The translations under genes and the position numbers were made by a program. Of a stretch of 64,000 nt of DNA, positions 4,103 to 39,514 are shown piece by piece. The stretch is taken from assembly GCF_005576615.1 (NCBI RefSeq), contig NZ_CP040330.1, positions 248,001 through 312,000 of the forward strand, read 5' to 3'. The notes beneath the pieces were generated by a model, which was given only the letters and a program-made list of their open reading frames with translations, was not told where the DNA came from and did no database searches. Within the stretch, counting starts at the first letter, position 1, and every line of letters starts with the position of its first letter. This DNA is from Natrinema versiforme. Lineage in GTDB: Archaea; Halobacteriota; Halobacteria; Halobacteriales; Natrialbaceae.

Positions 4103-4161
4103 GCGGGTTCGGTCGCCGGGACGGAATCGCCGTCACCGGCCGGCCGGCCGGAGACGGGATT

Positions 4162-6417
4162 TCAGACGAGGAAGTCGCCGCTGACCGACTCGCGCGCGTC
4201 CCGCAGATACCAGTACATCCCGCGTGCGGTCCGGAAGACGATCCCGACGACGAGCGCCGCGTACACCGCGACCGCGCCGAACAGCGACCAGCGGGTCACC
4301 TGCAGCGCGCTGGCCCGCTGCTCGTACTCCGCGGTCACCGCCTCCGCCCGGCTCGCCTCGCCGGCGTCCTCGAACGTCGCGGTCGCGTTCTCGTAGGCGG
4401 CGTTCATTTCGTCGACGCGCTCGTCGTACGCGTCGTACTCGGCCGGGTTCAGGAACAGCGGCTGCCCGGCGATCGTGAGGAACTGCTCCGTCTCCATCGC
4501 GGCCCACGTCTCGTCGGCCCGCTGGCGGGCCCGCTCGCCCGCAGACACTGACTCGGTATAGCTCTCGAAGGCCGATTCGGCGTCCGACTCGAGCGTCGCC
4601 GCTCGCTCGTCGTCGCCCTGCAACAGCGCGACGCGGGCGAGCTGGCGCTGGACCGTCGCCTCCTCGATCAGCGAGACGTTCTCGGACTCGAGGCGGTCCT
4701 CGTAGTAGGCCTCCTGTTCGGCGATCACCGCATCGAGGTCGCTCTCGGCGGCGGCCACCACCGCCGAACTGTCCGCCCGGAAGGCGTCGCCCTCGAGTTC
4801 GTTCGCGTAGAGAGTCATCGTATTGTAGGCGGCCGCGGCCTGGACGATCTCCCGCTGGGCGGACTTGTACTCGCCGGCGGCCTGTCGCTCGCGGGCGGTC
4901 TCCATCGACTCGAGGTAGAGCGAGGCGGCGCTCCCGTAGGAGAGGACCCGCGTGATGTCGTCGCCCGAAACGTCACCGGATCGCGACCGCTCGTCCATCG
5001 TGTCGATCATCGAGACGGTTCGGTCGGCGACGGTCCCGTCGTAGGACGACACCTCGGACCGGATCGGCCCGAGATCGAGCGGGACCGGCGACGCCGTGAC
5101 CGTCACGGTCTCTTCCTCGACGCCGGCGCCGTCGACGACGTACGTCCACTCGTAGCTGGTCCCAACCTCGGCGTCGGGTTCGAAGGCCATCCCGAAGACG
5201 ACCGGCCCGGAGTCGCCGGCGGCGAGCCGCGACGGGGACTCCTCGACCGTCAGCCACCTGTCCGGCCCGTCCTCGAGCGAGAGCTCGAAGTTCTCGACGT
5301 CGTTGTAGCCGAGCGATTCACCGACGGTCGTCGACCGCCGTTCGGGTTCGCCGATCGGCACGTCGCCGAGGTCGATCCGACTGGGAACGTCGAGTTCCGT
5401 TCCGTGCTCGATGTCGACGGTCCCGTCGTAGCTCGCGTCACTGACGCTGAAATCCGCCGCGCTGACCGAGCCCGTCACGTCGTAGGTCCCTTCAGAAAGG
5501 CCGGTGTCCGCCGTCACCGCCAGTTCGACCGTCCCGGTAGACTGTCCGTCGATCGTGTCCGGTCGGTCCGCGATCGAGACATCGAGCCCGCGGTTCGACG
5601 CGTACGCCGTCACACCGTCGAGATCCAACTCGAGGTCGCCGCTGTTCTCGACGTCGAGATCGACCGTCTTCGTGATCGTCGAGGACGACCCGCGGGGTTC
5701 GTCGAACGTCATCTCGTCGTCGAGCGTTACCTCGCCGAACTCGGCGGGGTAGATCACGCGGCTCTCGACCTCGACGGTTCGGGTCGTTCTGGAGTCGCCG
5801 TTCGCCTCGAGTTCCACCTCCCACTCGAGGTCCTCGTGCTGGTCGACGCCGCTGTCGGCGTAGACGTTCCAGTTCAGCGTGGTGCCGCTCACGCTGACGC
5901 CCAGATCGGCGTCCGGATCGGTACTGACGACGGTCGCGCTGGCGTAACTCAGCCCGCCCTCGCCGGTGAGCTCCTCGATATCGGCCTCACCGGATGTGCT
6001 CCCGCCGACGAGTACGTCACCGGTATCGAGCGGTTCGTCCTCGAGGCCGGCGATCGGGAGCCGGTCGACCTGAAAGCTGTCCGAGTCGCCGCCGGCGCTC
6101 ACGGTGACCGTTCCGCCGCTCGCATCGTCGTCGCCGCTGATCTCGAGGTCGATGGTTCGTGTCGACCCGCCGGGAACGCTTCGCTGCTCCGGATCGACGT
6201 CGATGCCCGACGGCGACGAGATGTCGAGTGAGACAGAGTTGTTCCCTCTGTTCTCGACTGTGACCGAGTGCGTCTCCGTCTCGGTCCCCAGATCGACCGG
6301 GCCGCTCTCCGCGTCGACGGTGACACTGCTCTGTGCTGTCGCCCCCGGGACGGCCGCCATCGTCAGGCCGATCGCGAGAACGAACGAGACGAACAGCACT
6401 CGTTTGCGCTTAGACAT
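4162..6417 (-). CDS. Secreted Ig-like repeat protein with C-terminal membrane anchor
   Basis: The protein has 751 residues when started at the ATG at 6417, which gives a clear signal peptide (MSKRKRVLFVSF, a hydrophobic core, then ATAQSS). A longer open frame upstream is arginine-rich and is rejected. The ectodomain begins with several beta-sandwich units of the NEW3/CARDB kind (such as TVENRGNNSVSLDISSPSG), continues with a helical segment (about residues 480-690), and ends with one membrane helix (about 705-725) and a short cytoplasmic tail ending GDFLV. It is the last gene of the eight-gene tubulin-like operon; its start overlaps the upstream stop by eight bases. The expected topology puts most of the protein outside the cell. 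No enzymatic motif is visible; a structural or envelope-contact role is inferred. Confidence 0.85.
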   Translation of the reverse strand: MSKRKRVLFVSFVLAIGLTMAAVPGATAQSSVTVDAESGPVDLGTETETHSVTVENRGNNSVSLDISSPSGIDVDPEQRSVPGGSTRTIDLEISGDDDASGGTVTVSAGGDSDSFQVDRLPIAGLEDEPLDTGDVLVGGSTSGEADIEELTGEGGLSYASATVVSTDPDADLGVSVSGTTLNWNVYADSGVDQHEDLEWEVELEANGDSRTTRTVEVESRVIYPAEFGEVTLDDEMTFDEPRGSSSTITKTVDLDVENSGDLELDLDGVTAYASNRGLDVSIADRPDTIDGQSTGTVELAVTADTGLSEGTYDVTGSVSAADFSVSDASYDGTVDIEHGTELDVPSRIDLGDVPIGEPERRSTTVGESLGYNDVENFELSLEDGPDRWLTVEESPSRLAAGDSGPVVFGMAFEPDAEVGTSYEWTYVVDGAGVEEETVTVTASPVPLDLGPIRSEVSSYDGTVADRTVSMIDTMDERSRSGDVSGDDITRVLSYGSAASLYLESMETARERQAAGEYKSAQREIVQAAAAYNTMTLYANELEGDAFRADSSAVVAAAESDLDAVIAEQEAYYEDRLESENVSLIEEATVQRQLARVALLQGDDERAATLESDAESAFESYTESVSAGERARQRADETWAAMETEQFLTIAGQPLFLNPAEYDAYDERVDEMNAAYENATATFEDAGEASRAEAVTAEYEQRASALQVTRWSLFGAVAVYAALVVGIVFRTARGMYWYLRDARESVSGDFLV

Positions 6418-7405
6418 CGCTATCACCCACCGCGACGACCGAGCCGACTCTGGACGCCTCGTAGGTCCGCCGCCAGAGGAAGAGCCGCCCGACGATGATC
6501 GTTCCCAACAGTCCGACAGCGACCCCGTAGCCGACCAGCACCGCGCTCGAGGCGATCGCGAGCGTCGTTCGGGTTTCGGCCACGTCGTCGGCCATCGCAC
6601 TCAGTTCCTCCTCGCGGTCGGCGAGTCCGTGGGTCGCCGCACGGTCGCGGGCGTCCCGAATCCGACTATCAGTCGCTCGGGCCTTCTCGTAGGCCGCGAA
6701 CGTCTCGAGGCCGTTGGCGCTGATGACGGCCTGTACGTCCGCACAGTCTGCGCAGTCTTCGACGAAGGTCGCGGTGGCGTTGCGCGCGGTCGCAATGGTC
6801 TCGCGGTCGCGCTCGTACTCCGCGGTCAACTGTTCGGCCTGCACCCGGAACTGGGCCGCCTCGTCGGGCATGTCCGCCCGCTCGTAGGCGGTCGCGGTCA
6901 TCTCGAGGCGCTCGATCCGGTCGGGCGTTCGGTTCACGGCGTCGGCCTCCTCGTAGAGCCCGTCGCCGAGTCGCTCGTAGAACCGCGTCAGCGCGAGTCC
7001 GGCGAGGGTCGCCTGCGTCTGGTCGTACCGCTCGAGGTCATCGATGTGTGCGCTGACGTTCTCGGCGGCGGCGAGACTCGCCTCGTACTCGCCGTCTTCG
7101 GCGCGGACGTAGGCGCGGTCGAACGCCCGCAGCGTGCCGGCGACGGCGTCGAACTCCGCGCGCTCGTCGGCCGAGAGGTCGCCGGTTACCTGCGTCTGAG
7201 ACACGGCAAAGGTTCGGACCGTCTCGAGTTCGTCGTACTCCTGGTAGGCCTCGGTCCCCTCCATCGCGCGGAACGTCTCGAAGTAGTCGTTCGCGCTCTC
7301 CTCCTGTGCGGCGGCAGTCCCCCCGAAGAGGGGCACCGTCGCGACCGTCGCGACGACGAGTATCGCCGCGAGTAGCATCGACCGTCGGGTTGATCGTGTG
7401 GGCAT
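6410..7405 (-). CDS. Signal-peptide helical protein with C-terminal membrane anchor
   Basis: This protein has 331 residues. It has an N-terminal signal peptide (MPTRSTRRSMLLAAILVVAT, cleavage near AAAQEES), a mainly helical, charged ectodomain of about 240 residues with TPR-like spacing (for example ERLGDGLYEEADAVNRTPDR), a CADCADVQ cysteine pair near residue 210, and a C-terminal membrane helix followed by a short tail. The layout matches the helical C-terminal half of the gene that follows it in the operon, so the two may be related partners. It begins three bases after the stop of the 972-residue membrane gene and overlaps the next gene. I do not recognise the family; an extracytoplasmic structural role in the tubulin-like system is inferred. 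Confidence 0.85.
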   Translation of the reverse strand: MPTRSTRRSMLLAAILVVATVATVPLFGGTAAAQEESANDYFETFRAMEGTEAYQEYDELETVRTFAVSQTQVTGDLSADERAEFDAVAGTLRAFDRAYVRAEDGEYEASLAAAENVSAHIDDLERYDQTQATLAGLALTRFYERLGDGLYEEADAVNRTPDRIERLEMTATAYERADMPDEAAQFRVQAEQLTAEYERDRETIATARNATATFVEDCADCADVQAVISANGLETFAAYEKARATDSRIRDARDRAATHGLADREEELSAMADDVAETRTTLAIASSAVLVGYGVAVGLLGTIIVGRLFLWRRTYEASRVGSVVAVGDSDV

Positions 7406-7408
7406 GGC

Positions 7409-10327
7409 TTAGAACACCGTCCGTGAGAGCCTATCGCGGAGGGGATCGCGCTCGAACACGGCCTCGACCGCGTCGAGCAACAGCAGGGCGGTGTAGATGG
7501 TGACGATCGCCTCGTCACCGCGACCGGCGTCGCTGCCCAGTTCCCAGGCGCGTCGCAGCATCTCCTCGGCGGGCGCGGCTTCCGAGACCGATTCGCGCTC
7601 GGTCTCAACCTGGGTCGTGACCTTCTCGTACCGGTCCTTGAGCGTGTTTCGTCGGCTCATCGCGTCGGACTCGAGCCACTCGAGGACCGTCTCGATATCG
7701 CAGTCGCCGTCCCAGCCGACGCCGGGATCGGGCATGTCCGCACAGGCGGCGAAGAGGTCGACGTTCCGCTTAGTCGTCATCGCGTCGTTGATCGCGTCGA
7801 TCGCCGCCTCGGCGGCGGCCAGCAGCGCGTCCGCGACGGCGTCGGGCTCCGCCTCGCTGTGGGCGAAGTGGTGGCCCGCGTCGGGGAGGGACTCGACCGT
7901 CTCGAGGATCGCGGTCACGACCGAGCCGTAGTACCGCGGGATGGTCGTGTCCCGCCCGCTGTGGTCGGACAGGGCCCGGACCTCGCGTCGTAGGTGATCG
8001 ATCCGATCCCGGTGGCTCGCGGACAGCGACCACGTAAAGCGGGCGTCGACCTCGACCTTCGTCGACCGGTCTTCGCGCACTGTCAGGACGGTTTTCCCGC
8101 CGTCGAACAGGTGATCGCGTCCCTCCGGCGCGCCGATCGCGGCCCGGTACTGCCCGATCAGGAGCCCGTCGCGGGTGGCGACCCCGTCGCTGTCGGTCGT
8201 CATGCTGACGGTCCCGTACCGATCGTCGAGCACCTTCTCCCGCGGGCTGAGTTGAAGCGGCATCGACGGCGTCTGCACACCGTCGATGCGGGAGACCAGC
8301 CGCACGCGTCCGGTGTGTGGGGTAAGCGCGAACTGTCTGTTCCCGTCCTGCGGGAAGTTGACCGACTCAGTTCGATCCTCGTACTTCTCGTGGGAAATCT
8401 CCACGTCGACGCTCGAGCCGCCATCTCCCGGTTCGATATTGGCGACTCCATTCGAGTTCGTCGATAGCGTGGCCCCGTCGTCGCCGCGCGTAACCGTCGC
8501 ACTGGGGATCGGCTCGCCGTCAGCTCGGTCGGTGACGACGAGCCCCGTCGACGGAAGCGATAGAGTAAGCGTGGCCTTCGGGTCGTGCTTACTCACCTCG
8601 ACGAGGTCGGAATAGTGTGAATCGATTTCCGCGACGACCTCCCACGGCCCTTGATCCGGCACTGTGATCCGCCCCTCTCCGTCTGAGATCGTCTTATTTC
8701 GCGAGTCCTTCTTGTCGTCGTCTACTCGTTTGTAATGAATCTCCGCTCGCTTGACCAGCGGATACTCTCCGTCGGTAACCGATACGTCGATCGTAAACCC
8801 GGTGTCCCGATCGGCACCGGCCGGGACGCCGAGGAGGTAGTAGGTCCCCGGTGCCAGCGCCGCTCCCAACACGACGCCGCCGACAGCCGGACCGTGGATG
8901 CCCAGCGCGGGAGATAGCGGGTCATCGGCGAGGCGGACGACGCTCACGATCGCGACCGTCAGCGCCGGTCCGACGGCGATGAGGGCGCTCAGACTGAGAC
9001 GCTCTTTGTTCCAATCCTCGCGGAACCAGTAGGCACAGTAGCCGACGACGAGTCCCGCCAGCCCCGGCAGCACCAGCGGCCCGCCGAGTTTGCCCGCTTG
9101 CCCGGCGCTCGCGGTAATCTTACTCAGTAGCCCGGGATTGGGGTCTTCTTCCGATCCGGCGTCGGGGGCGCTGAGCGACACTCTCGTGAGCCCCGCCTCG
9201 GTCGCCAGCAGGAGTTCGTCGTCTGCCGTCACCGTCGTCCCCTCGAGGTCGAGTGCGCCGTTCTCGATCGTCCCGTTCTCGAGCGCGAATCGCTCGAGGG
9301 ATCCATCGCTCGCGTTGACGACGACGGACGAGACCGCGAGCCCGTCGACGCTCTGCTCGAAGGCGACTGCCGAGCCGTCGTCCGCGACCGTCGCGGAGAG
9401 CGAGGCCGGCTCCGCGAGCGAGAGCGATTCGTCCTCGAGGAGCGCGTCGCTCCCGTCCGTCGCCGACAGGGTGACGCGAACGTCGTCCGCACTCGAGAGC
9501 GACGGCAGATCGATCTCGCCGGGTCGAACGGGGTCGACGCTGTTGTTCACGTACCGGTTCCCGTCGCCGTCCTCGGCCGCAACGTCGTACTGACTGCCGG
9601 TCTCGACCAGCGGGTGCCAGAGCACGAGGTCGTCGTCGATATCGCGCAGTTCCGGCTCGAGGGGTCGCTCCGTCGGGTCCCAGTCGCCGACGGACGCCTC
9701 GAGGGCGACCTCGTCGCCGGGCGCGACCGCGCCGACGAGCCACGAGTGGTCGATCGCGAGCTGGGTGCCGTTCGCCCGAATCTCGGCCTCGGTCTCGTCG
9801 CCGCCGGCGGAGACCGTGACCGTGTCGCTTTCCGTGATCCCGACCGTGTTGCGCTGCTCGAGCGGGAGCACGACCTGTGGCTCGTCGCCGCCGTCGATCC
9901 GAACCGGGACCCCGTCGCCCGCGAACGCGATCGTGCGCAGGTCGAGGGTCTCGTTCGCCGTCTGATCGCCGGCTGTGACCGTCACGGTCGCCTCGCGCAG
10001 CGACTCGTGGCCGATGCTGTCGGCCAGTTTGGCGATCGCCACCTCAGCCGAGCCGTCGCTGCTATTTTCGGTCGTCGAGGCGCTCTCGTTGGCCGCGGTG
10101 ACCTCGAGGGTCACCTCCTCGGGCCGGTCGTCGCCGAATTCCGAGAGGGAGACCTCGACGAAGTCGCCGGTCCGCTCGATACCGATCTCCCCGTTGCCGT
10201 CTTGGGCCGTCGCTGCCGCCGTCGCCGGTGCGACGGTCGCACCGGCGAGCGCGAGCGCGAGGACGACGGCGACGAGCGCGCGAGTCGCGGTCGAACGGTC
10301 GTCTGGATCGCGTGTCAGTGCCGTCAT
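7409..10327 (-). CDS. Large membrane protein with ectodomain, three TM helices and carboxypeptidase-regulatory-like domains
   Basis: The protein has 972 residues from the ATG at 10327; the open frame extends upstream but only through arginine-rich sequence antisense to the previous gene. It has a signal peptide or N-terminal membrane segment (about residues 16-40, ending ATAAATAQ), a beta-rich acidic ectodomain of about 400 residues, and three hydrophobic helices (about 445-540, beginning LVLPGLAGLVVGY). Beta-sandwich units of the carboxypeptidase-regulatory/CarboxypepD_reg type follow (for example TGLVVTDRADGEPIPSATV), then a long helical C-terminal region. With three TM helices after a cleaved signal, the beta/helical C-terminus should be cytoplasmic, so the protein could bridge the cell surface to the tubulin-like proteins. 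It starts two bases after the stop of the upstream tubulin-like gene. Function is inferred. Confidence 0.87.
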   Translation of the reverse strand: MTALTRDPDDRSTATRALVAVVLALALAGATVAPATAAATAQDGNGEIGIERTGDFVEVSLSEFGDDRPEEVTLEVTAANESASTTENSSDGSAEVAIAKLADSIGHESLREATVTVTAGDQTANETLDLRTIAFAGDGVPVRIDGGDEPQVVLPLEQRNTVGITESDTVTVSAGGDETEAEIRANGTQLAIDHSWLVGAVAPGDEVALEASVGDWDPTERPLEPELRDIDDDLVLWHPLVETGSQYDVAAEDGDGNRYVNNSVDPVRPGEIDLPSLSSADDVRVTLSATDGSDALLEDESLSLAEPASLSATVADDGSAVAFEQSVDGLAVSSVVVNASDGSLERFALENGTIENGALDLEGTTVTADDELLLATEAGLTRVSLSAPDAGSEEDPNPGLLSKITASAGQAGKLGGPLVLPGLAGLVVGYCAYWFREDWNKERLSLSALIAVGPALTVAIVSVVRLADDPLSPALGIHGPAVGGVVLGAALAPGTYYLLGVPAGADRDTGFTIDVSVTDGEYPLVKRAEIHYKRVDDDKKDSRNKTISDGEGRITVPDQGPWEVVAEIDSHYSDLVEVSKHDPKATLTLSLPSTGLVVTDRADGEPIPSATVTRGDDGATLSTNSNGVANIEPGDGGSSVDVEISHEKYEDRTESVNFPQDGNRQFALTPHTGRVRLVSRIDGVQTPSMPLQLSPREKVLDDRYGTVSMTTDSDGVATRDGLLIGQYRAAIGAPEGRDHLFDGGKTVLTVREDRSTKVEVDARFTWSLSASHRDRIDHLRREVRALSDHSGRDTTIPRYYGSVVTAILETVESLPDAGHHFAHSEAEPDAVADALLAAAEAAIDAINDAMTTKRNVDLFAACADMPDPGVGWDGDCDIETVLEWLESDAMSRRNTLKDRYEKVTTQVETERESVSEAAPAEEMLRRAWELGSDAGRGDEAIVTIYTALLLLDAVEAVFERDPLRDRLSRTVF

Positions 10328-10329
10328 GC

Positions 10330-11556
10330 TCACTCCGCGTTCCGTTCGACGTACGACTCGAGGTTGTCGACGATCCGGTCGAGTTGGGCGGTCGTCAGGT
10401 CCGAGCCCCCGCCGCGGGACTGGCCGGCGAGGCTGTCGCCGAGCATCTCGAAGTCGTCCCACGAGTGATCGAGCAGCGGGTTCAGATCGAAGCCGCCGAG
10501 CAACAGGAGCACGTCAACGTCGCTGCCGCGCCCGCGTTTCGGCGTGAGACTCGCCTGTCCGGCGACGTTGATGTCGTTCTTGCCGGTCCACTCGCGGAAC
10601 GCCTCGTAGACGTCCGGCTCGGTGATCTCCCCGTCGTCGATCATCTGCTCGGGCGCGCGAACGATGGCGTAGGCGGCCGTCGTCGTCTCCACGTCCATCG
10701 GCACGAACGCCCCCTCGGCCGCCTGATCGAGCATGTACTCGAGTTCGTAGACGGAGCCGTTGAGGTCCGTCGCGACGGCGGGCGTGAAGTGGTAGGCGTC
10801 CATCTGGGACGGGATCGTCACGTAGTCCTTGATATCGATGACGCTGTGGGTCTCCCGGCCGGCCCCGATCATCAGGTCGACCGCGGTGATGATCGCGTCG
10901 TTGATCGAGTCGTACTGATCGCCGGCGCCGGTCTCGTCGTCGTCGAGGTGGGAGTTCGACGCGAGCAACACCATGTCGGCGTTCTGCTCGTCGTCGTCGG
11001 TCCGGAGCAGCCGCGAGAGCCCGCAGATCGCGTTGAAGTGTCGCTGGGGCTGCTCGTAGTAGTAGGGCCAGACGCCCACGGCGGCGTGGATCACGCTGTC
11101 CATCCACTCCTCGGAGGCGTTGTCGTCGTTCAGGTCGCGCAACCCGTCTTTGAACTGGTCGACGACGTAGGGGATCGAGCCGTTGCCGGTCCCCCCGCCG
11201 AGCGTCGCGACGTGCATGAACGCGTCCGTCGTCCCGAACTCCGTGATCCGGTTGACGATCCGATCGAGGTCCTCCCGCGCGCAGGCCTCCCCGTTCGGGA
11301 AGAAGTTCCCCGCCCCCTGCTGGGAGCCGAACTCGAGGGCGTGGGATTCGATCACGTCCTCCTCTTCGCTGGCCCCCAGTTTCGACCGGAGTCGGTCGAT
11401 CGTGTTCCGCAGGTCCGCTCTGTTCGTGTTCATCACCAGAATCCGGTCGTCGATGCCCGGGTTCTCGGTGCGGTCGAAAAACTGCGATGCGATGCGGCCG
11501 CCACCCTCTCCCGAGGCGATGACGCTCCATCTCGTAAACGTGTCTGTCTGTCCCAT
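10330..11556 (-). CDS. Divergent tubulin/FtsZ-superfamily protein (copy 1, 408 aa)
   Basis: The N-terminal nucleotide-binding half of the tubulin fold is recognisable: a T1-like glycine loop ASGEGGGRIAS (residues 14-24), a T3-like strand and loop VMNTNRADL (41-49, compare FtsZ INTDAQDL), the hallmark T4 signature GGGTGNGS (120-127), a T5-like ADMVLLASNSHLD (193-205) and a T7-like VIDIKDYVTI (239-248) in place of the FtsZ NLDFADV. The protein therefore keeps both GTP-binding and possible synergy-loop acidic residues. It is clearly not canonical FtsZ1, FtsZ2 or CetZ, because the T1 loop is unusual and the C-terminal half is not FtsZ-like by eye. Expected role: a GTP-binding, perhaps polymerising, cytoplasmic protein. 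It lies in the middle of the membrane-protein operon, four bases after the upstream stop. Superfamily call is strong; subfamily is unknown. Confidence 0.88.
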   Translation of the reverse strand: MGQTDTFTRWSVIASGEGGGRIASQFFDRTENPGIDDRILVMNTNRADLRNTIDRLRSKLGASEEEDVIESHALEFGSQQGAGNFFPNGEACAREDLDRIVNRITEFGTTDAFMHVATLGGGTGNGSIPYVVDQFKDGLRDLNDDNASEEWMDSVIHAAVGVWPYYYEQPQRHFNAICGLSRLLRTDDDEQNADMVLLASNSHLDDDETGAGDQYDSINDAIITAVDLMIGAGRETHSVIDIKDYVTIPSQMDAYHFTPAVATDLNGSVYELEYMLDQAAEGAFVPMDVETTTAAYAIVRAPEQMIDDGEITEPDVYEAFREWTGKNDINVAGQASLTPKRGRGSDVDVLLLLGGFDLNPLLDHSWDDFEMLGDSLAGQSRGGGSDLTTAQLDRIVDNLESYVERNAE

Positions 11557-11559
11557 GAA

Positions 11560-13650: not shown

Positions 13651-14666
13651 CGGATCACCTCCAGTAGCTCGGCCCCGCCGAGGGTGACGAGCAACGCACC
13701 GCCGGCGACGGCCAGGACGAGCCCCACCAGAATCGGCACCAGCGCCGTCTTCCGGTCGTAGGACACGTTCCGGCTCAGCTTCATCGTCTCCTCGACGCGC
13801 CGCGCCGCGATCAGCGGGACCGCCGCCCCCGCGGCCACGCCGATGACGAGCCCGGCCGCGAGCGATCCCAGCGTCGCCATCCGGACCGTCGATTGAGCCT
13901 CGGCGCGCTCCGTTTCGACGGCAGTTTGGTATCGCTCGAGCGCCGTGTTCGTCTCGTTGCGTTGTTCGCTCGCGTCCGCCTGTACCGCCGCGAGCGCGCC
14001 GATCGCGCCGCTTTCGTTCCCGGCTTCGGCCTCCGCGAGCAGGTAGTTGCTCAGCGCGTCCGCCCGCTCGTTCATGGTCTCGTACGTCTCATCGAGTTCA
14101 TCTAGATCCTCCTCGGCGGCCGCGAAATCCGCGTCGCCCTCCTCGAGTGCCGCGGTCGTCTCGTTCAGCGCCGCCGTCGCGTTCGCGAGCGAGCGCCGCG
14201 CCTCGAGGTACTCCTCGACGCGCTCGTCCTCGAGGTCGGCGAGGGCCGCCTCGCCGGTCGGTTCGCCCGGAACGGTCACGACCAGCCCGGATTCGACGTC
14301 GTTGAGGGTGACGTACTCGTCGAATTCGACCCTCATTCCGGCATCGCCGGTGATCGCGACGGTGTAGACGCCCTCGTTCGTCGAACTCGGTTCGTTTCGG
14401 ATTTCGAAGCCGTCGGCACCGTCGTCGGTCAGCCAGTCGCCCTTGTATTTCGAGCCGTCGGTACAGTAGGCGACGTCGAACGTCGAGCCCTCGTACAGCC
14501 GCTCGTCGCCGTCGACCCACTCGCCGTCGACGTTGCCGACGACAGTCGAATCGGTACCGGGGCAGTCGACGTCAGTCACTGTCGCACCGGCTGTTCCCGT
14601 TCCGACGGCGAGTATCGCGCACACAACGACCGCGAAAAGCAGGAATCGTCGCATTCGAATCGTCAT
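13647..14666 (-). CDS. Secreted/membrane coiled-coil protein with two C-terminal TM helices
   Basis: The protein has 339 residues from the ATG at 14666, which overlaps the upstream stop by ATGA; the longer open frame is arginine-rich and antisense to the small upstream gene. It has a signal peptide (MTIRMRRFLLFAVVV, ending AGATVTD), a beta-rich domain of about 110 residues with two cysteines, a coiled coil at about residues 135-245 with several N-glycosylation-type sequons (NATAALNETT), and two membrane helices at about 250-275 and 300-325. Both ends of the helical hairpin would leave only a short loop inside. It is coupled to the preceding 87-residue gene and the following 696-residue gene. 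A structural membrane role is inferred; no catalytic motif is seen. Confidence 0.85.
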   Translation of the reverse strand: MTIRMRRFLLFAVVVCAILAVGTGTAGATVTDVDCPGTDSTVVGNVDGEWVDGDERLYEGSTFDVAYCTDGSKYKGDWLTDDGADGFEIRNEPSSTNEGVYTVAITGDAGMRVEFDEYVTLNDVESGLVVTVPGEPTGEAALADLEDERVEEYLEARRSLANATAALNETTAALEEGDADFAAAEEDLDELDETYETMNERADALSNYLLAEAEAGNESGAIGALAAVQADASEQRNETNTALERYQTAVETERAEAQSTVRMATLGSLAAGLVIGVAAGAAVPLIAARRVEETMKLSRNVSYDRKTALVPILVGLVLAVAGGALLVTLGGAELLEVIR

Positions 14667-14926
14667 TGCAGTCGCCCTCCGATTTCCCGATTCTTGTACC
14701 AGTACGTGATCCCGCTCGCGACCGCGGCCCCGAGCCCGAGCCCGAGTAGCGCACCGCCGGCCGCAAGCGGTAGCGTTTGCTCCGCGAGCGCCGTCGCGGT
14801 GTCTGCTCCAGTCGTCTCCTCGGCGGCCGTTCCCACGACGGAGTCGTCGGCTGCGACCGTCGCCGTGAGTCCGCCGAGGACGACGACGAGGACGAGCACG
14901 CACAGCGTGTACCGCCGTCGCGTCAT
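14663..14926 (-). CDS. Small membrane protein (87 aa) of the tubulin-like operon
   Basis: The protein has 87 residues with an N-terminal signal or membrane segment (MTRRRYTLCVLVLVVVLGG), a short acidic/Thr-rich outside loop and a second glycine-rich hydrophobic helix (LPLAAGGALLGLGLGAAVAS), ending with a basic tail. The ATG overlaps the tubulin-like copy 2 stop (ATGA), and a GGAGGAG ribosome site lies within the end of that gene, so its translation is coupled. Glycine-zipper-like spacing in the second helix suggests oligomerisation in the membrane. It could tether the tubulin-like protein encoded directly upstream. The family is not recognised. Confidence 0.8.
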   Translation of the reverse strand: MTRRRYTLCVLVLVVVLGGLTATVAADDSVVGTAAEETTGADTATALAEQTLPLAAGGALLGLGLGAAVASGITYWYKNREIGGRLQ

Positions 14927-16308
14927 GCGAGCAACTCCTCCGTTTCCGCTTCGTAGGCCTCGGCGGCCGCCTCGATATCCGCGATCCGGTCGAGGTCCTC
15001 GCGGCGGTAGGTCAGCAGCGTCGTCACCGACGCGAGGTTCCGGTCGCTCATCGCGACGCCGAGGTTGACCTCGCTCAGGTTACTGGTCCCCTCGAGGTAT
15101 CGCTTGACGGTCCCGATCTCGACGCTGTGGCCGCCGGACCCGAGGTTCGACTTCGGCGCCCTGATCAGCGAAATCGCCTTCTGTGCGTCCTCGACGTCGG
15201 CCTTCGCGAGCGTCTGCTTCGCCGCCGACAGCCGCGAGAGCGCCGCGCTGTCGATATTGCGCTTTCCGACGAACGGCAGCAGATAGCCCGACAGCGACCG
15301 CGTCATCGTCACCGAGCGACCGATCGCGGCGTAGCCCGGCTCCGACTCCTCGCCGGCGACGCCGAACGACAGCGACGTGACGATGTCCCGAACGTCGATG
15401 TCCGGCGTGTCGATGCCGTCGACCGCGCTCGGGTCGATCCCGCTCAACACCGGTCCGGCGACGAGATCGTAGATCGATGCGGCGACATACTCGTTGTACT
15501 CGCCGAACTCGCCGCCCGCCGAGTCGAGATACGAGATGCGCTGGTTGTCGACCAGCACGATCCCGTCGACTTCCTCCTCGAGGCGATCCAGACCGTACCG
15601 GGCGTTCCACGCCTGCCGGCCGGCGCTAACGTCGTCTTCGTCGTCTCCATCGTCGGCGGAACCGCCGACCGTGTCCGCATTCTGCGTGTTCGGCAGCACC
15701 GCCACCGCGACCACCTTGGTCCGCCCGTCGGTAAACGCCTTGATCTCGCGGGCGAGGTGCGGGCCGATCCCGCAGCCGGTTCCGCCCCCGAGTCCGAGGA
15801 ACAGGAACGCAAACTGGACGCCCGAGCCCGTCGGCTCGATCGCCGGTTCGGGATCGGTCTCGGCCGATGCGTCATCCTCGAGCGAGTCACCGTCGACCGG
15901 GTCGCCGTCCTCGTCTTCGGGCGCGTCGTCGAACGCCGCGCCGGCGTCGTTCGCGAACGAGGGATCGAACTTCTCGCCCAGGATCGTCTGGACCTGCGGC
16001 GCGTGCTCGGCCATCACCTCGTCGGCATCGACCGGATTCCGACCGAACCCGCCGGTCACCATCTCCTCGAACCCGGGCTCGGTCCCCTGGACGAGCCCGT
16101 GTTGCTCTGCGACTCCGTACTGATCTTCGGGCGGCACGTTCGAGAGGTTCTGGAGGTCCCGCATCGTCGAATTGAACACCAGCGGCCGACCGAGCGTCGA
16201 AATGTCGGCCGAATCGAACAACCCCAGCAGCGAATCGTCGGTGTAATCGAATATCGAATCGACGATCGCACCCCCCGCTTGTCCGGCCCCAACGAACAGG
16301 TACGTCAT
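14923..16308 (-). CDS. Divergent tubulin/FtsZ-superfamily protein (copy 2, 461 aa, CetZ/tubulin-like T1 loop)
   Basis: This is the first gene of the operon. It has a T1 loop VGAGQAGGAIVD (residues 6-17), where QAG is the CetZ/tubulin type rather than the FtsZ GGAG type, a T3-like VFNSTMRDL (44-52), the T4 signature LGGGTGCGIGP (173-183), a T5-like VLVDNQR (251-257), and DIDVRDIVTSL (303-313) matching a T7 synergy loop with three acidic residues. A roughly 35-residue acidic insertion (126-160) separates T3 from T4, and a second acidic loop lies at 213-228. The C-terminal half does not look like FtsZ or CetZ. It should bind, and might hydrolyse, GTP. A coupled small membrane protein follows. 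Superfamily confidence is high; polymerisation is untested. Confidence 0.88.
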   Translation of the reverse strand: MTYLFVGAGQAGGAIVDSIFDYTDDSLLGLFDSADISTLGRPLVFNSTMRDLQNLSNVPPEDQYGVAEQHGLVQGTEPGFEEMVTGGFGRNPVDADEVMAEHAPQVQTILGEKFDPSFANDAGAAFDDAPEDEDGDPVDGDSLEDDASAETDPEPAIEPTGSGVQFAFLFLGLGGGTGCGIGPHLAREIKAFTDGRTKVVAVAVLPNTQNADTVGGSADDGDDEDDVSAGRQAWNARYGLDRLEEEVDGIVLVDNQRISYLDSAGGEFGEYNEYVAASIYDLVAGPVLSGIDPSAVDGIDTPDIDVRDIVTSLSFGVAGEESEPGYAAIGRSVTMTRSLSGYLLPFVGKRNIDSAALSRLSAAKQTLAKADVEDAQKAISLIRAPKSNLGSGGHSVEIGTVKRYLEGTSNLSEVNLGVAMSDRNLASVTTLLTYRREDLDRIADIEAAAEAYEAETEELLA

Positions 16309-16685
16309 CTAGCTATCGAAAACCGTCTCGTTCAGCTCCAAATGTAGTTAACGGATCGTACATGTCTTGTCAGTCAGACCACTCGAGCATCATACAATAA
16401 AGCTAATGGCCACGTGTAGGACCGGGTTTCCGAGTGAGATGGCCGATAGTAACGATTTTTGACTGGCAACAGGATCGCGAGATATTTCACACTATTTTGA
16501 TGGAATATATCGACAATGTATGTCGGTTATAAGATAATTGGGCCCGAATTCGATTCGGCTCAGTGACTGGCGGTCGCGACCCCGCCGGCGACGGACGATC
16601 GCCGTCTCGTCCGGAGTCGGCCGAAAACTCGATCTGCATTCACCGATCCGCTTCGGACGCCAACCAGCGCGATCCGCGATTCGAC
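16309..16685. other. Intergenic, AT-rich upstream region of the tubulin-like operon
   Basis: This stretch of 377 bases has no convincing gene. It is markedly more AT-rich than its surroundings between about 16370 and 16540, and probably holds the promoter of the eight-gene minus-strand operon. A weak TATA-like GCTTTATTG (minus strand, about 16395-16403) lies about 90 bases upstream of the first start codon. The end near 16686 belongs to the terminator side of the next minus-strand gene. A 176-codon open frame covering part of it is a shadow with basic, low-quality sequence. Confidence 0.5.
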
Positions 16686-18704
16686 CTACCCCCGGAGCCG
16701 GCGGAGCATGACGCTGTACTCGTTTCGCTCGTAGAGCGCCTCGACGTGTCCGAGCACCTCGTCGGCCGCCGCACAGAGGCCGACCGCCCGCATCGGACTC
16801 TCGCCGTCGACGCGCTGGGCCTCGGCTCGGAGGTCGTCGGCCAGCGAGAGGAAGTGACGCGGAATGGTGTGGTTGTGATCGGCCCGTACGTCGATGTACT
16901 CGCGCTCGATCTCGTCGATCCGCTTCTCGAGATCCTCGATCAACCGCCCGGTATCTGCCCCGGTGTCTCCCCCGAGCGACCGCGACAGCCGCGGCAGCAG
17001 CGTCCGATCGTAGAACGTACACTCCTGATAGATCGCGTACAGCTGCACGTCGGTCACCCCGTCCCGCTCGAGCATCGCCTCGAGTTCCCGGACCCGGTCG
17101 GCGAGATGCCGGTAGACGTCGCCGTCCGCCCGCTGAAGTTCGTCATCGAGAGCGTCGAGCCGCCGTCGAACGTCGCGCTCGCCGATGTCCGCGATCGACG
17201 CTTGCAGGTCCGCGTACCCGTCGAGCGAGTCGACCGTCGACCGCAGGACCGGCGCGGTGTCGTCCGACGCCGGCTCGCCCAGCGTCTCGAGCAACTCCCG
17301 GGACTGTGGCGACTGCGGTCTGATCGAGCGCTCGAGATCGGCGGCAATCGATTCGACCGACATCTCGGTCGGTCCCGTCGCGTTCGGGTCCTCGAGCGCG
17401 ATGGCCCCGCTCTCGAGGGCGTCCGCAAGTTCCGCGGTTCGGTCGGCGATATCGTCCGCCCGGAACGCGAGCGCGTCGCTTCGGTCGGCTTCGCGACAGA
17501 CGGTCTCGGCCGCGGTCCGTATCCGCTCGTACTCTCTTCTGGACCGTTCCAGGTCGGCTTCGGTTTCCGAAAGTTCGGCCTCGGTCGCCGAGAGTTCGGC
17601 TTCGACCGACGCCGTTTCGCTGCCTTCGAGGACGCGATCGAACACCGGCTCGAGACCGGCGGCGATCGGCCCCTCACGCACGGACAGCGTTCGTTTCGCC
17701 GACTGGAGCTGTGCGTCGACCGTCGGGTCGTCGATGCTTTCGACGGCGTCGGCGATAGCCCCTGCGTGCTCGAGTCGGTCGACCGCATCCTCGAGAGCGT
17801 CCTCGAGTTGCTCCTCGTCCGGGTCGGGGTCCGAGAGAACCCGACACAGATCGTCGGCGATCGGATCGGTCGGTCGCGTCCGCGAGGTGACGGCATCGGC
17901 GACCGTCGTCACCGGATGGTCCGCCGTCTCTGTCGGCTCGTCGCGGTCGTCTCGAGGGGCCACCGGCTCGTCGTCGCGCGGCTGTTCGGTGACCGGTGAC
18001 GGTTCCGTCCCCTGTTCTCGTGATGGGTCTTCCTGGGCCGCTGGTGATCGAGAGTGACTTCGATTCGTCTGCGGTCCGGCGTTTCGTTCTCGATTCGAAC
18101 TGGGGTTTTTGAGTCGCCGAATGCGTTGCCGGATCTCGGAGACGAGTTCGTCGACAGTGTCGCTCGTATTCGAGTGTATCGTGGTCGAGTTCCCGCCCGA
18201 TGTCTGAATCTCGAGTTCGGTGTGGCCCTTGGTTTGCTTCGACTGAACACCGGTCAGTTGATCATAGTAGATCTCTTTGTCGGAACCGCCGTCTGTCCCC
18301 GATCGGGACTCCATATCGTATTGCGCTTTTCCATGCAGACTGATCGACGTATCAGTCAGGACGATAGAGGTGTTATAATACGTATCAGACGGTTTTACCA
18401 ACATCGGTGAACTGCCTGAACCGGACAACAGATTATAGATCTCGCCGCTATCGACTGCGATACCTTGCTTTGCCTTCCGTTCCGATTCGCTGACGAAGCC
18501 CTCGATAAACGGCTGGTAATTATTGTTGACTTCCCTGACGCCCCAGTACCAAATGCCGACTCCCCCAATCAAACCGAGACCGGCGAACAGTACCACGCTG
18601 TCTCCCATTACTCCGATGACAGTAAACGCGATTGTCACACCAATGGTCACGAGCCACGGTGACCACCCTATCTTCCATCGGAGTCCGTTAACCTCCCCTG
18701 CCAT
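16686..18704 (-). CDS. Membrane protein with PH-like domain and long coiled coil
   Basis: The protein has 672 residues from the ATG at 18704; an in-frame TTG at 18728 would add eight residues. Two membrane helices (about residues 16-32 and 36-56) are followed by a beta-rich domain of about 110 residues (Ser-rich, with SIVLTDTSISLHGK and YDQLTGVQSKQTKGHTELEI) that fits a bacterial-type PH fold. Next come a disordered Arg/Ser/Asp linker and about 400 residues of acidic coiled coil with heptad-like repeats (SATEAELSETEADLERSRRE). PH-like domains often bind membranes or partner proteins. The gene lies between tubulin-like copies 2 and 3 on the same strand, but has its own upstream region with a TATA-bearing palindrome. 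It is probably a membrane-linked partner of the system; the function is inferred. Confidence 0.8.
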   Translation of the reverse strand: MAGEVNGLRWKIGWSPWLVTIGVTIAFTVIGVMGDSVVLFAGLGLIGGVGIWYWGVREVNNNYQPFIEGFVSESERKAKQGIAVDSGEIYNLLSGSGSSPMLVKPSDTYYNTSIVLTDTSISLHGKAQYDMESRSGTDGGSDKEIYYDQLTGVQSKQTKGHTELEIQTSGGNSTTIHSNTSDTVDELVSEIRQRIRRLKNPSSNRERNAGPQTNRSHSRSPAAQEDPSREQGTEPSPVTEQPRDDEPVAPRDDRDEPTETADHPVTTVADAVTSRTRPTDPIADDLCRVLSDPDPDEEQLEDALEDAVDRLEHAGAIADAVESIDDPTVDAQLQSAKRTLSVREGPIAAGLEPVFDRVLEGSETASVEAELSATEAELSETEADLERSRREYERIRTAAETVCREADRSDALAFRADDIADRTAELADALESGAIALEDPNATGPTEMSVESIAADLERSIRPQSPQSRELLETLGEPASDDTAPVLRSTVDSLDGYADLQASIADIGERDVRRRLDALDDELQRADGDVYRHLADRVRELEAMLERDGVTDVQLYAIYQECTFYDRTLLPRLSRSLGGDTGADTGRLIEDLEKRIDEIEREYIDVRADHNHTIPRHFLSLADDLRAEAQRVDGESPMRAVGLCAAADEVLGHVEALYERNEYSVMLRRLRG

Positions 18705-18748
18705 TATATAGCGAACGAATGTACTCAAGTCCTGATTAAGCTTCTGCC

Positions 18749-18760
18749 CTGATATATCAG
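18749..18760. promoter_or_regulatory. Perfect 12-bp palindrome containing a TATA element
   Basis: CTGATATATCAG is a perfect palindrome whose centre is a good archaeal TATA box. It lies 45 bases upstream of the ATG at 18704, so transcription would start near 18728, exactly at the in-frame TTG. A repressor bound here would block TBP. Promoter function is inferred from position only. Confidence 0.45.
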
Positions 18761-18907
18761 TTCAAGATTGATTTCTATCGAAGAAAGTCGTTTCTGAAAA
18801 CGTGGCGGACGGAGAGTGCTATGAACCGAGTCCGAACGGTCCATATCGGTCCCGTGTGGCGGCTGCGGTCGAATCTCTGGCTGGGGGTATTGATCTCTGT
18901 CGCTGCC

Positions 18908-20503
18908 TCAAGCCATGTTCTCCCGTCCGAGCGAGGAAAACAATGCCTCGACCGCGTCCCACTCCTCGCGGACGTTCTCGGCCTGTTCGCTATTGCCCTC
19001 CTGTTTCAGCCGCTGGGCCTGATCGTACATGTCCGAAAGCGACGGCATCTCCGGGTTCCACAGCGTCCCCCAGAGGTAGACGTCGTCGAGGTCGGGCGTG
19101 ACGAGCTGTTTGACGTGGACGTCGACGGTTTCGATCCCCGAGACGTCGCCCGCGTCGAGGAACTCCTCGCCGGAGATGATCTCGGTCAGCGTGCCGTCGG
19201 CGACGAACTCCGAGACGTCGTCCATCTTCTCCGGAGGGCCGTACGCCAGGAACGTCCCACCCCACGCGGTCGTCGGATCGAACTCGGCCAGCTTGTTCTG
19301 GAACAGCGCGTTCCGGACGAGGATCTCGAGTTTCGATCGATCGATGGCGTTCGCCCGCGACCGCCCGAGCACCGGCGCGAGGATCACGGCCGGCGTGAAC
19401 GACACGTCGGGGTTCAGCTGGTACTTGTCTTCGACCGGCCGGAAGCTGTCGGCCGGATCGAACACGTCGCCCATGATCGACATCGTCGCGTCCCGATCGA
19501 GGAACTGCGGCACCGACGACATGGTAAACGCCTCGAGAAACGCCACGAGCGGCCGGTTGATCTCCGTGTACTGCGGCGGGTTGTACTCCTCGAGGCGGTC
19601 GATCCGCGGGCGGATGTCCGCCTGGACGTTCTCGAGGCGGTTGTTGTCGAAGGGGATGATCGCGTCGACCGCTCGCGAGGTGCGCGCGAGTCCGACGACC
19701 CCGTTTACCTTCGCGCGGCCGCCGTACTCCGAGTACTCGGTCCCCTCCGACGGGATAACGACGCTGCTGAACAGCGGCTTCGGGACGATCGTCTCGTCCG
19801 CGAGGACCTCCGTTCTGAGCTTCTCGGCGAGCACCGGCGTCGCGCCGCAGCCGGTGCCTTTCGTCACGCTGTGGACGAACATCACCGCTTGGGAATCTTT
19901 GATGTGATCGGTCCGCATGTCCCACCGCTCCCGGAACGGGTCGGCGTCCCCCTCAAAATCGGCCTCCATGAGCTGTCTGCCGATGTCCCATCGGTAGCCG
20001 GCCCCCGCGTAATCGTGTCGACCCGAGCCGATGATACAGTTCGGCAGCAGATCGTTGCGGCTGTAGTCGTTTTCCTCCTGTGCGTAGTAGGTCTGCTCGA
20101 GTTCGCTGACGTTCGTGTTCAGCGCCCCGTAGCCGGCGAGGCCGCCCTCCCAGATCCGCGCGCGGCGCTCGTTGTTCTCCGACAGCGTCTCGCGGCGCAA
20201 CAGGACCGCGTCGAGGAGGTTGTTCCCCGCGCCGCCGACGCCGATGAGGAACCACTTCTTGCCGTACGAGCTATCGAGCAACTCCTCGCTCGGCGTCTCG
20301 GGCGGCGTCCCCGGTTCGGGTCCGGGCCCGGGGTCGGTTGACTCCGACTCGGACTCCGCGGCGAAGACCTCCTCGCGCAACTCCGGATACACCTGTTCGA
20401 CGGAGGCCGGTTCGTCGCCGTGTGCGGCTCGGATGTGTTCGACGAGGGTCGCCCGCTCCCACTCACCCTCCCGCGCCATACAGATTTTACAGAGATTCGT
20501 CAT
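18908..20503 (-). CDS. Divergent tubulin/FtsZ-superfamily protein with N-terminal C2H2 zinc finger (copy 3, 531 aa)
   Basis: The N-terminus carries a zinc-finger pattern with C5, C8, H23 and H28 (CKICMA ... EHIRAAH), then an acidic/Pro linker to residue 80. The tubulin core follows: FtsZ-type T1 LIGVGGAGNNLLDAV (86-100), T3-like ALNTNVSEL (127-135), T4 SVTKGTGCGATPVLAEKL (212-229), where the first glycine pair of GGGTG is altered to KGTG, and T5-like IPFDNNRLEN (283-292). A possible T7 stretch is VFDPADSFRP (347-356). It is the most FtsZ-like of the three at T1 but has lost part of the T4 phosphate loop. It is monocistronic or leads its own unit; a TATA-like CTTTAGATA lies about 35 bases upstream. 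Function is unknown; a cytoskeletal regulator or scaffold is plausible. Confidence 0.88.
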   Translation of the reverse strand: MTNLCKICMAREGEWERATLVEHIRAAHGDEPASVEQVYPELREEVFAAESESESTDPGPGPEPGTPPETPSEELLDSSYGKKWFLIGVGGAGNNLLDAVLLRRETLSENNERRARIWEGGLAGYGALNTNVSELEQTYYAQEENDYSRNDLLPNCIIGSGRHDYAGAGYRWDIGRQLMEADFEGDADPFRERWDMRTDHIKDSQAVMFVHSVTKGTGCGATPVLAEKLRTEVLADETIVPKPLFSSVVIPSEGTEYSEYGGRAKVNGVVGLARTSRAVDAIIPFDNNRLENVQADIRPRIDRLEEYNPPQYTEINRPLVAFLEAFTMSSVPQFLDRDATMSIMGDVFDPADSFRPVEDKYQLNPDVSFTPAVILAPVLGRSRANAIDRSKLEILVRNALFQNKLAEFDPTTAWGGTFLAYGPPEKMDDVSEFVADGTLTEIISGEEFLDAGDVSGIETVDVHVKQLVTPDLDDVYLWGTLWNPEMPSLSDMYDQAQRLKQEGNSEQAENVREEWDAVEALFSSLGRENMA

Positions 20504-24766: not shown

Positions 24767-24816
24767 CACACGGAAACGGGGGGTGCCGGGTCAAAGGCGT
24801 TTCCTTCGAGTCGCCG

Positions 24817-34638: not shown

Positions 34639-36111
<1,473 letters not shown>

Positions 36112-36196
36112 ACAGACCGGGACCGGGGCGTCGCCCCGGCCCACCCTAACTCGTGGCGCGTTGCGCCACGCGGTGCACGTTCGATCGACCATCGGT

Positions 36197-36234
36197 TGGC
36201 CGATCGGGCACCTTTGAACTACCGAGGCTAACAT
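36197..36234 (+). other. 16S processing stem, right strand
   Basis: This strand pairs with 34507-34544 (see that entry). Bulge TTT at 36213-36215 holds one cleavage site. tRNA-Ala lies just outside the stem. Confidence 0.88.
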
Positions 36235-36266
36235 GATACGCGCTGTCCACCCACGTGGGTGGACGT

Positions 36267-36338
36267 GGGCCCATAGCTCAGTGGTAGAGTGCCTCCTTTG
36301 CAAGGAGGATGCCCAGGGTTCGAATCCCTGTGGGTCCA
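36267..36338 (+). tRNA. tRNA-Ala (anticodon TGC) in the 16S-23S spacer
   Basis: Acceptor GGGCCCA pairs with TGGGTCC, discriminator A. The anticodon stem CCTCC/GGAGG holds loop TTTGCAA, giving anticodon TGC. The T-arm has GGTTCGAATCC. CCA is not encoded. Its place between 16S and 23S is normal for haloarchaea. Confidence 0.98.
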
Positions 36339-36483
36339 TGGCTCGGTGCGGATCGAATCGTGCCCCTTAAGTAGGGCAGACGACTTCGATCTAATCCGAC
36401 GAAACTGATGCACCACTCCGCGTAAGTGCGAGTGGGAAGGGTTAATGCAGGCCGGCTGTCTACCGGCGTGCAGATGAGACCGT

Positions 36484-36519
36484 GTGTACGTGTAGTCCAG
36501 GCGTCCACTGGACCCGTTC
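36484..36519 (+). other. 23S processing stem, left strand (bulge-helix-bulge)
   Basis: GTGTACGTGTAGTCCAG (36484-36500) pairs perfectly with 39535-39551. The 4-bp helix GCGT (36501-36504) pairs with ACGC (39528-39531), bulges are CCA (36505-36507) and AAA (39532-39534), and CTGGACCCGTTC (36508-36519) then pairs with 39516-39527. It is a canonical 3-4-3 motif. Confidence 0.9.
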
Positions 36520-36562
36520 CCGGGTCACGATGTTGCGACTTTGTCGCAACGCCGATCCGATG

Positions 36563-39485
<2,923 letters not shown>

Positions 39486-39514
39486 ACACTACATCGCATT
39501 GGATCCGTGACGCG

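Follow-up and report, generated by a model that had tools for sequence, protein, structure and literature searches.

The closest described counterpart of the locus examined here is the Halo_adaptin system of Makarova et al. 2024 (mBio, PMC10936438), which is similar to the endosomal sorting complex required for transport (ESCRT) and for which the available text names one CetZ-related protein. Work on archaea has usually regarded machines of the tubulin type and of the ESCRT type as alternatives to each other. In this study, a stretch of 64,000 nucleotides from Natrinema versiforme, referred to below as the window, was analysed (C2:248001-312000 in a genome of five contigs and 4.67 Mb). It carries three distinct tubulin-superfamily genes, tubA, tubB and tubC, interspersed with seven genes for membrane or secreted proteins and adjoined by a module with a Vps4-like AAA ATPase. 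In haloarchaea the ten genes of the tubulin side keep a strict order, and the three tubulins are retained in the same genomes as the ATPase module.

Three tubulin families distinct from FtsZ and CetZ

All three genes lie on the minus strand as open, intact reading frames with a gene-like third-position GC content of 0.87-0.92. TubA (10330..11556, 408 amino acids), TubB (14923..16308, 461 amino acids) and TubC (18908..20503, 531 amino acids) score 37.4, 46.3 and 47.1 bits against PF00091, for which the Pfam cut-off is 33 bits. In alignments that combine each window protein with a subset of its listed homologs (A1-A3; 34, 35 and 38 sequences), the domain is matched at E<=0.01 by 34/34 TubA, 35/35 TubB and 38/38 TubC members, 107/107 altogether. 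The T4 segments read GGGTGNGS in TubA, GGGTGCGIG in TubB and KGTGCGAT in TubC, and the T1 segments SGEGGGR, GAGQAGG and GVGGAGNN, respectively. The GGGTG of T4 is kept in 121/121 TubA and 121/121 TubB homologs, the GTG of T4 in 108/108 TubC homologs. The acidic residues of T7 are required for hydrolysis at the subunit interface. Among the listed homologs, this pair is present in 121/121 TubA and 121/121 TubB sequences, and its two residues in 107/108 and 106/108 TubC sequences. The T1, T4 and T7 positions were assigned by eye; in a profile comparison the T7 segments of TubA align with those of TubB and of TubC, and no alignment was obtained between the T7 segments of TubB and TubC. TubC has in addition an N-terminal zinc-finger-like segment, CxxC...HxxxxH, with C5 in 90/108, C8 in 89/108, H23 in 102/108 and H28 in 99/108 homologs, which forms a putative zinc site.

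By sequence, the nearest solved structures of all three proteins are CetZ (CetZ1, 4b46, E 1.2e-13 for TubA; CetZ, 3zid, E 2.2e-12 for TubB). The whole tubulin fold including the second domain was found, the structure model having been made for TubC alone among the three, and by fold this model is likewise nearest to CetZ. TubA, TubB and TubC are tubulin-superfamily proteins. The initial annotation, made from the DNA letters, had assigned them to the tubulin/FtsZ superfamily, and the intact frames, the PF00091 scores over the cut-off and the T1 and T4 motifs it had quoted all bear this out.

Nine proteins of the genome match PF00091. The six others are two FtsZ (FtsZ_C 2.1e-36 and 1.2e-35) and four CetZ (CetZ_C 5.2e-38 to 9.4e-81). 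FtsZ_C (PF12327), present in 2/2 of the genome's own FtsZ, was found in 0/107 aligned TubA, TubB and TubC members, and CetZ_C (PF21011), present in 4/4 own CetZ, also in 0/107. The NCBI FtsZ model TIGR00065 gave 23.2, 27.0 and 34.5 bits for the three tubulins, against a cut-off of 295.2. In a tree of 43 proteins, TubA, TubB and TubC each form a clade of their own with support 100/100, on stems of 2.45-2.65 changes per column; the FtsZ stem measures 2.81. None of the three is thus a normal FtsZ1, FtsZ2 or CetZ, as had been proposed by eye: the C-terminal FtsZ and CetZ domains are missing, whereas each of the six own FtsZ and CetZ proteins has one. Many relatives are entered in public databases as 'cell division protein FtsZ' or as 'FtsZ/tubulin family protein', so that their tubulin nature is not overlooked there.

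A connection with the FtsZ-like families described by Makarova and Koonin 2010, also drawn in the initial annotation, was not supported. Tubulin_2 (PF13809) matches none of the three window tubulins at E<=0.01, and at this threshold it matches 0/34 TubA, 27/35 TubB (weakly, best 8e-6) and 2/38 TubC members. One of the genome's own CetZ proteins also matches Tubulin_2, at 1.5e-6. A scan of 19 frames at and near the locus and of the five upstream proteins gave no vWA match. An origin from FtsZl1/Tubulin_2 was dropped because the matches are weak and their level is equalled by a CetZ. Also rejected was a fourth family member, TubD (C2:235195-236496, 12 kb to the left of the window); it is a divergent CetZ with CetZ_C (5.2e-38), and the automatic 'TubC' label that it received in the locus annotation (22 bits) was disregarded. 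The gene adjoining TubD we take to be tRNA-endonuclease-like.

Gene order and co-retention

A single pattern-based scan of a species-genome collection yielded 38 TubA loci, 22 of them haloarchaeal, 2 from Methanoperedens and 14 from ANME-2 (anaerobic methanotrophic archaea)/Methanosarcinales. With the membrane and secreted proteins named by their start in the window, the ten-gene order M20745-TubC-M16686-TubB-M13647-M11560-TubA-M7409-M6410-M4162 is identical in 18/22 haloarchaeal loci, which span Natrinema, Halorubrum, Halorussus, Haloarchaeobius, Halopenitus, Natronomonas, Halobaculum, Halomicroarcula, Haloquadratum, Halobiforma and Halovenus. The M16686 gene reads as two open frames in L016 and L032. 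As to the remaining four, L015 and L029 are contigs of 3.5 kb, L030 is cut by a contig end, and the Halobellus locus (L037) is without the TubC end, no full-length TubC being found in that genome. The genome of L030 (G129, a metagenome-assembled genome) has two copies each of TubC and the winged-helix/coiled-coil protein described below, and two TubA loci (L015 and L030) stand under the same isolate name; these duplicates reflect either two systems or a mixed bin.

Retention was assessed in an even sample of 117 genomes of the order, one of which is that of the window. Full-length TubA was found in 8 of them (E at most 4.9e-118), TubB in 8, and TubC, the ATPase and the winged-helix/coiled-coil protein in 9 each; eight genomes have all five. 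Treating genomes as independent, an assumption that does not hold, the chance of the overlap between TubA and the ATPase alone would be 1.3e-11. The genes are kept together even where they are no longer adjacent. In G076 the halves lie ~254 kb apart, with five ATPase-side genes (C1:~246-254 kb) and ten tubulin-side genes (C1:~498-517 kb) both in the usual order, and in Halopenitus malekzadehii (L022) the two halves are ~70 kb apart. Full-length TubA is missing from 109/117 genomes, including 5/5 other sampled genomes of the same genus, and further Natrinema species have TubA; the set has therefore often been lost or transferred.

A second sample consisted of the genomes of 17/38 loci, hand-picked for spread and partly contained in the 117. 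Full-length TubC and the winged-helix/coiled-coil protein are both present in 11 of these 17 TubA genomes and both absent from 6 (two Methanoperedens, Halobellus and three ANME-2). Because the two are present or absent together in 17/17, the distribution suggests that TubC is the tubulin associated with the ATPase module and that TubA and TubB form the core, with one exception, G006, which is considered below. Two other subsets of the genomes of the 38 loci were chosen for particular questions: 12 for the TubB search including non-haloarchaea, and 14 for the Methanoperedens Vps4 linkage check. The multi-component, membrane-linked tubulin system suggested in the initial annotation gains support as far as the haloarchaeal genes travel together, in order in 18/22 loci and with three tubulins in the same 8/117 genomes.

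Membrane and secreted proteins of the tubulin operon

Hydropathy confirmed the seven same-strand membrane or secreted proteins that had been read from the open reading frames at 4162, 6410, 7409, 11560, 13647, 16686 and 20745. The simple hydropathy count falls below threshold in some relatives (0 segments in 4/20 members of the 4162 family and 1/10 of the 16686 family). Six genes, from 14663 to 4162, abut or overlap by <=17 bases, so that tubA and five genes for membrane or secreted proteins make up one tight operon; the gaps around TubB, 16686, TubC and 20745 are ~180-380 bases. A scan of 4000-4300 for sigma-70-type promoters gave nothing, this consensus type being unsuited to archaea.

At the left end of the operon, M4162 (4162..6426, minus strand; start codon chosen in the analysis) has a signal peptide-like segment, a large ectodomain, one transmembrane segment and a short tail, and matches DUF7356 at 0.0034, below the cut-off. 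G[DE]FL occurs near the end of the tail in 17/20 members, a count read by eye; a tail regular expression on the same sequences counted 8/20 and 3/20. M6410 (6410..7405, minus strand) likewise shows a signal peptide-like segment, an ectodomain and, by hydropathy, one transmembrane segment, and is a distant paralogue of M4162 (hhalign A9 versus A10, probability 89.6, E 1.9e-6). M7409 (7409..10327, minus strand; start codon chosen in the analysis) is a large secreted or membrane protein with hydrophobic segments and a CarboxypepD_reg-like match (PF13620, 9.5e-6) below the curated cut-off.

Directly upstream of tubA lies M11560 (11560..13650, minus strand), a membrane protein with two transmembrane segments in 20/20 members. 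Its AlphaFold2 model (predicted local distance difference test, pLDDT, 86.5; predicted template modelling score, pTM, 0.53) consists of two N-terminal helices of transmembrane length, a long helical region, a beta-sandwich and a C-terminal helix/strand part. The sandwich bears a transthyretin/CnaB-like resemblance only (best E 0.0036), and an identity via solved structures was rejected, since in the match to NOMO2 (6.7e-5) no single stretch passes. M13647 (13647..14663, minus strand; start codon chosen in the analysis) has a signal peptide-like segment and two hydrophobic segments near the C terminus, and its profile was found in the 18 complete loci as well as L030 and L037.

Two further membrane proteins flank tubC. 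M16686 (16686..18728, minus strand) has two N-terminal hydrophobic segments followed by a long soluble part, predicted to be cytosolic; no Pfam match over cut-off and no solved relative at E<=1 were found, and a match to a Rad50 model reached 24.9 bits against a cut-off of 1087. M20745 (20745..22295, minus strand), a single-pass protein with a long soluble part that is also predicted to be cytosolic, is present in the 18 complete loci and is the last conserved gene of the cluster; a search of solved structures gave no relative. The loci mostly end inside the 20745 gene, and the right flank was therefore judged by reading ~8 kb further in 12 genomes. Beside the cluster lies a DEAD-box (Ski2-like) helicase with Sec63 and winged-helix domains (22388-24769). 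This helicase, the 24817 protein and the bPH_2 protein at 25542 were rejected as members, the helicase and bPH_2 protein being found in 1/12 genomes (G137) and the 24817 protein in 0/12. Further to the right, the window holds a complete rRNA operon (34639-39953) with 16S, tRNA-Ala, 23S, 5S and tRNA-Cys.

The adjoining ATPase module

The initial annotation had delimited the unit as the tubulins and membrane genes, which was correct for these, and had overlooked the adjoining ATPase module. The cluster is wider on both sides, with a right end at 22295 and a leftward extension on the plus strand through 1145-4102 and past the window start. The ATPase-side cluster points tail-to-tail at the tubulin operon. 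The window contains the 3' part (1..1161, plus strand) of the Vps4-like AAA ATPase gene, which starts outside it at G000:C2:247398; the 587-amino acid product matches AAA (PF00004) at 5.2e-32 in one stretch. A Pfam search with the full protein listed no MIT domain up to E 1. Nor did Pfam list CDC48_N for the N-terminal domain, the published VAT-N link resting on more sensitive methods.

Next to the ATPase, a 985-amino acid protein (1145..4102, plus strand) with a weak match to CARDB/immunoglobulin (Ig)-like domains (0.0029, below the cut-off) is the convergent neighbour of the tubulin operon in 16/18 complete loci. By its position and the weak Ig match, it is a candidate for the 'adaptin-like' protein of Halo_adaptin systems. 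Upstream of the ATPase are a 242-amino acid protein, the winged-helix/coiled-coil protein and another winged-helix candidate, the latter two named by position; Pfam gave no match for a winged-helix fold in either. The cluster matches the ESCRT architecture described for Halo_adaptin in the available text of Makarova et al. 2024 (PMC10936438). The module may contain an ESCRT-III protein; sequence searches did not reproduce the published ESCRT-III, winged-helix and propeller assignments. The winged-helix/coiled-coil protein (A12) was dropped for this role, since by the gene order given in that paper the ESCRT-III-like protein would be the small one encoded upstream of the ATPase.

Relatives outside haloarchaea

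Methanoperedens has TubA, TubB, relatives of M4162, M6410, M7409 and M11560 and a relative of the 985-amino acid protein, without TubC. A TubB-profile match was obtained in 12/12 genomes reached through the loci, nine of them outside haloarchaea. Seven genomes of the ANME-2 type carry a diverged TubB (~1e-40 to 1e-50) in frames of ~350-490 amino acids, two with a stop inside the match. On the tubulin contig of one Methanoperedens genome (that of L048), a CDC48_N protein (1e-10) and a Vps4 are encoded ~19 kb away from TubB, the closest core gene being 16 kb away. This Vps4 matches AAA (2.4e-42) and Vps4_C (2.9e-7), and MIT at 0.00029, below the cut-off. Between TubB and the CDC48_N and Vps4 genes lies a series of membrane proteins resembling beta-propellers (L059, L062), of which two have zinc-ribbon-like tails. 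A 212-amino acid protein next to the Vps4 had looked ESCRT-III-like by eye and was rejected; Pfam gave nothing, and the Protein Data Bank an unrelated kinase only (E 0.83).

Proposed mechanism and alternative explanations

Three families with near-invariant nucleotide-site and T7 residues, a strict gene order and co-retention with the ATPase/winged-helix module are directly seen. We infer filaments and their joint assembly, anchoring, outward sensing, disassembly by the ATPase and a function in vesicles. In the explanation that we favour, with moderate confidence, the three distinct tubulins form filaments at the inner face of the cell membrane, driven by guanosine triphosphate (GTP), and act with the predicted anchors and the Vps4-like ATPase module to bud or reshape membrane. 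TubA, TubB and TubC would all be GTP-binding subunits of head-to-tail stacks, in which the T7 acidic pair of a subunit completes the active site of the one that follows. The co-retention of all three suggests that they could build one mixed or layered polymer. M11560, M16686 and M20745, with N-terminal transmembrane helices and predicted cytosolic soluble parts, would anchor the filaments, while M4162, M6410 and M7409 may be turned outward, where they would contact envelope proteins or cargo, and relay signals to the inside via their short tails. Because TubC mostly comes and goes with the ATPase/winged-helix module, TubC with its zinc-finger-like N terminus may be the subunit that engages it, and the ATPase would then dismantle or remodel the tubulin assembly. 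The product might be a membrane bud, a vesicle or an envelope patch and not a division septum, a role other than septation being suggested by the two ordinary FtsZ genes kept elsewhere in the genome.

A more specific version, which we put forward tentatively, is a tubulin-ESCRT machine. Its single scaffold, bound to the membrane, would be assembled jointly from three obligate tubulins that cannot replace one another, with transmembrane Ig-like proteins holding it from the outside. TubC would pass the scaffold on to the Vps4-like ATPase, and the ATPase would pinch off or remodel the membrane. If true, tubulin would here make up a cytoskeletal coat, one that occurs in haloarchaea and, in a reduced version, in methane-oxidising archaea. 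We know of no equivalent of such a coat.

Several observations weigh against the favoured explanation. One genome, G006, has a divergent TubC (34%) beside 16686-, 20745- and 7409-like genes as a stand-alone module (L058, 8405-16680), with no match for TubB, the ATPase or the winged-helix/coiled-coil protein and no full-length TubA. A metagenome-assembled genome of 59% completeness (G016) shows the ATPase module without tubulins, on a contig that ends inside the ATPase gene. The core occurs without TubC and the winged-helix/coiled-coil protein in Halobellus and two Methanoperedens genomes, and the ANME-2 genomes keep TubA and diverged TubB without membrane genes in the stretches examined; the ATPase module is therefore not universal. 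On the contig of the second Methanoperedens genome no such Vps4 and CDC48_N genes were seen, which limits their linkage to 1/2 genomes. For the winged-helix/coiled-coil protein and the small protein upstream of the ATPase (A13), no ESCRT-III or PspA chain was matched in the Protein Data Bank with alignments of only 9 and 8 sequences. Finally, in the available part of a report on Haloferax (PMC10927574), CetZ deletions, which concern different tubulins, left vesicle production unaltered. Vesicle budding is therefore only one of two leading products, envelope patterning being the other. As to independent occurrence of the three genes and the membrane genes, which the initial annotation had named as a refutation, the haloarchaeal exceptions are G006 and Halobellus, the latter without the TubC end; outside haloarchaea, TubA and TubB occur without TubC and, in ANME-2 stretches, also without membrane genes.

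A reading in which the tubulins are unrelated, neighbours by chance and each with a separate job, is favoured by TubA and diverged TubB without TubC in both ANME-2 and Methanoperedens, and by TubC standing apart with 16686- and 20745-like genes in G006. The strict order in 18 loci and the presence of all three in the same eight of 117 genomes nevertheless make it very improbable. Less likely still is a mobile-element or defence system, such as one with plasmid-partition (TubZ-like) or phage tubulins. It would fit the patchy distribution, with full-length TubA missing from 109/117 genomes, and the ATPase does match the PADLOC AAA ATPase models IetA (2.2e-27) and TRIP13 (2.4e-18). However, these matches are confined to the AAA domain, PADLOC gave no match for the three tubulins or six other partners scanned, and the locus lies on a 3.7-Mb contig that also carries the rRNA operon. 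This reading was already disfavoured.

A cell-shape or envelope scaffold similar to CetZ deserves more weight and is possible, if less probable than the budding or reshaping of membrane. A cortical tubulin layer would pattern surface proteins, and the ATPase would be a Cdc48-like recycling unfoldase. CetZ proteins are indeed the closest in fold and sequence, several secreted or single-pass proteins show Ig-like or related weak matches, no MIT domain was detected in the ATPase at the window locus, and Haloquadratum walsbyi carries the full set (L027). Yet such a scaffold leaves unexplained the tight co-retention with a winged-helix/coiled-coil and ATPase set that the available text of PMC10936438 describes as ESCRT-like. 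With full-length TubA in only 8/117 genomes and 0/5 others sampled from the genus, its absence from 109/117 argues that it is not a general shape determinant. The operon is also dominated by large secreted and single-pass membrane proteins, and its six genes from 13647 to 4162 abut or overlap, as would suit a machine for secretion or assembly of surface proteins, in which the tubulins would arrange an envelope complex for the export or insertion of large secreted proteins. No channel, translocase or peptidase domain was listed among the partners scanned, however, and we regard such a machine as improbable.

Comparison with known systems

Much of the locus corresponds to Halo_adaptin as set out in the available text of PMC10936438. 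Like that system, it has a Vps4-like ATPase that lacks MIT. Genes occupy the positions of the PspA-like and the two winged-helix proteins of that text, a protein with a weak Ig-like match adjoins the ATPase, and there are additional membrane proteins as well as CetZ-related protein(s), three of them here. Haloquadratum walsbyi, named in that text, has the same tubulin-side order (strain J07HQW1, L027). Differing from what the text describes, the window locus has three tubulin families, each as divergent as FtsZ, and seven genes for membrane or secreted proteins whose order is fixed, and the TubA-TubB core exists in other archaea without the winged-helix/coiled-coil protein.

The Halo.Tub group of Santana-Molina et al. 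2023 (PMC9871819) probably overlaps TubA, TubB and TubC, being likened to them by description and not by accession. In the available text it forms one group and not three families, and neither partner genes nor an ESCRT link are given. CetZ provides the nearest solved structures, but CetZ_C was not found in TubA, TubB or TubC, which form separate clades. FtsZl1 (Makarova and Koonin 2010, PMC2875224), as far as the available text describes it, is similar in being a divergent tubulin with membrane partners and a proposed role in membrane remodelling. Unlike FtsZl1, which has ~1000 amino acids with a long coiled coil, the window tubulins have 408-531 amino acids, Tubulin_2 is weak or absent and no vWA partner is listed; T7 is readable in them, whereas the T6-H7 counterparts of FtsZl1 are given as unidentifiable in that text.

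A literature search in titles and the starts of abstracts, which covered few subscription papers and neither bioRxiv nor supplements, returned no description of three tubulin families in the Halo_adaptin system. Three families of FtsZ depth, kept with a Vps4-like module even where the halves have moved apart in the chromosome, offer a testable case, in culturable organisms, of one machine using both tubulin-type and ESCRT-type parts. Such a machine would join two cytoskeletal systems usually studied apart, bear on the origin of multi-tubulin polymers outside eukaryotes and give hypotheses of function for genes that public databases often call 'cell division protein FtsZ'. Makarova et al. 2024 described an ESCRT-like Halo_adaptin system with a CetZ-related protein, and the present analysis adds three co-retained tubulin families in a membrane operon of fixed order.

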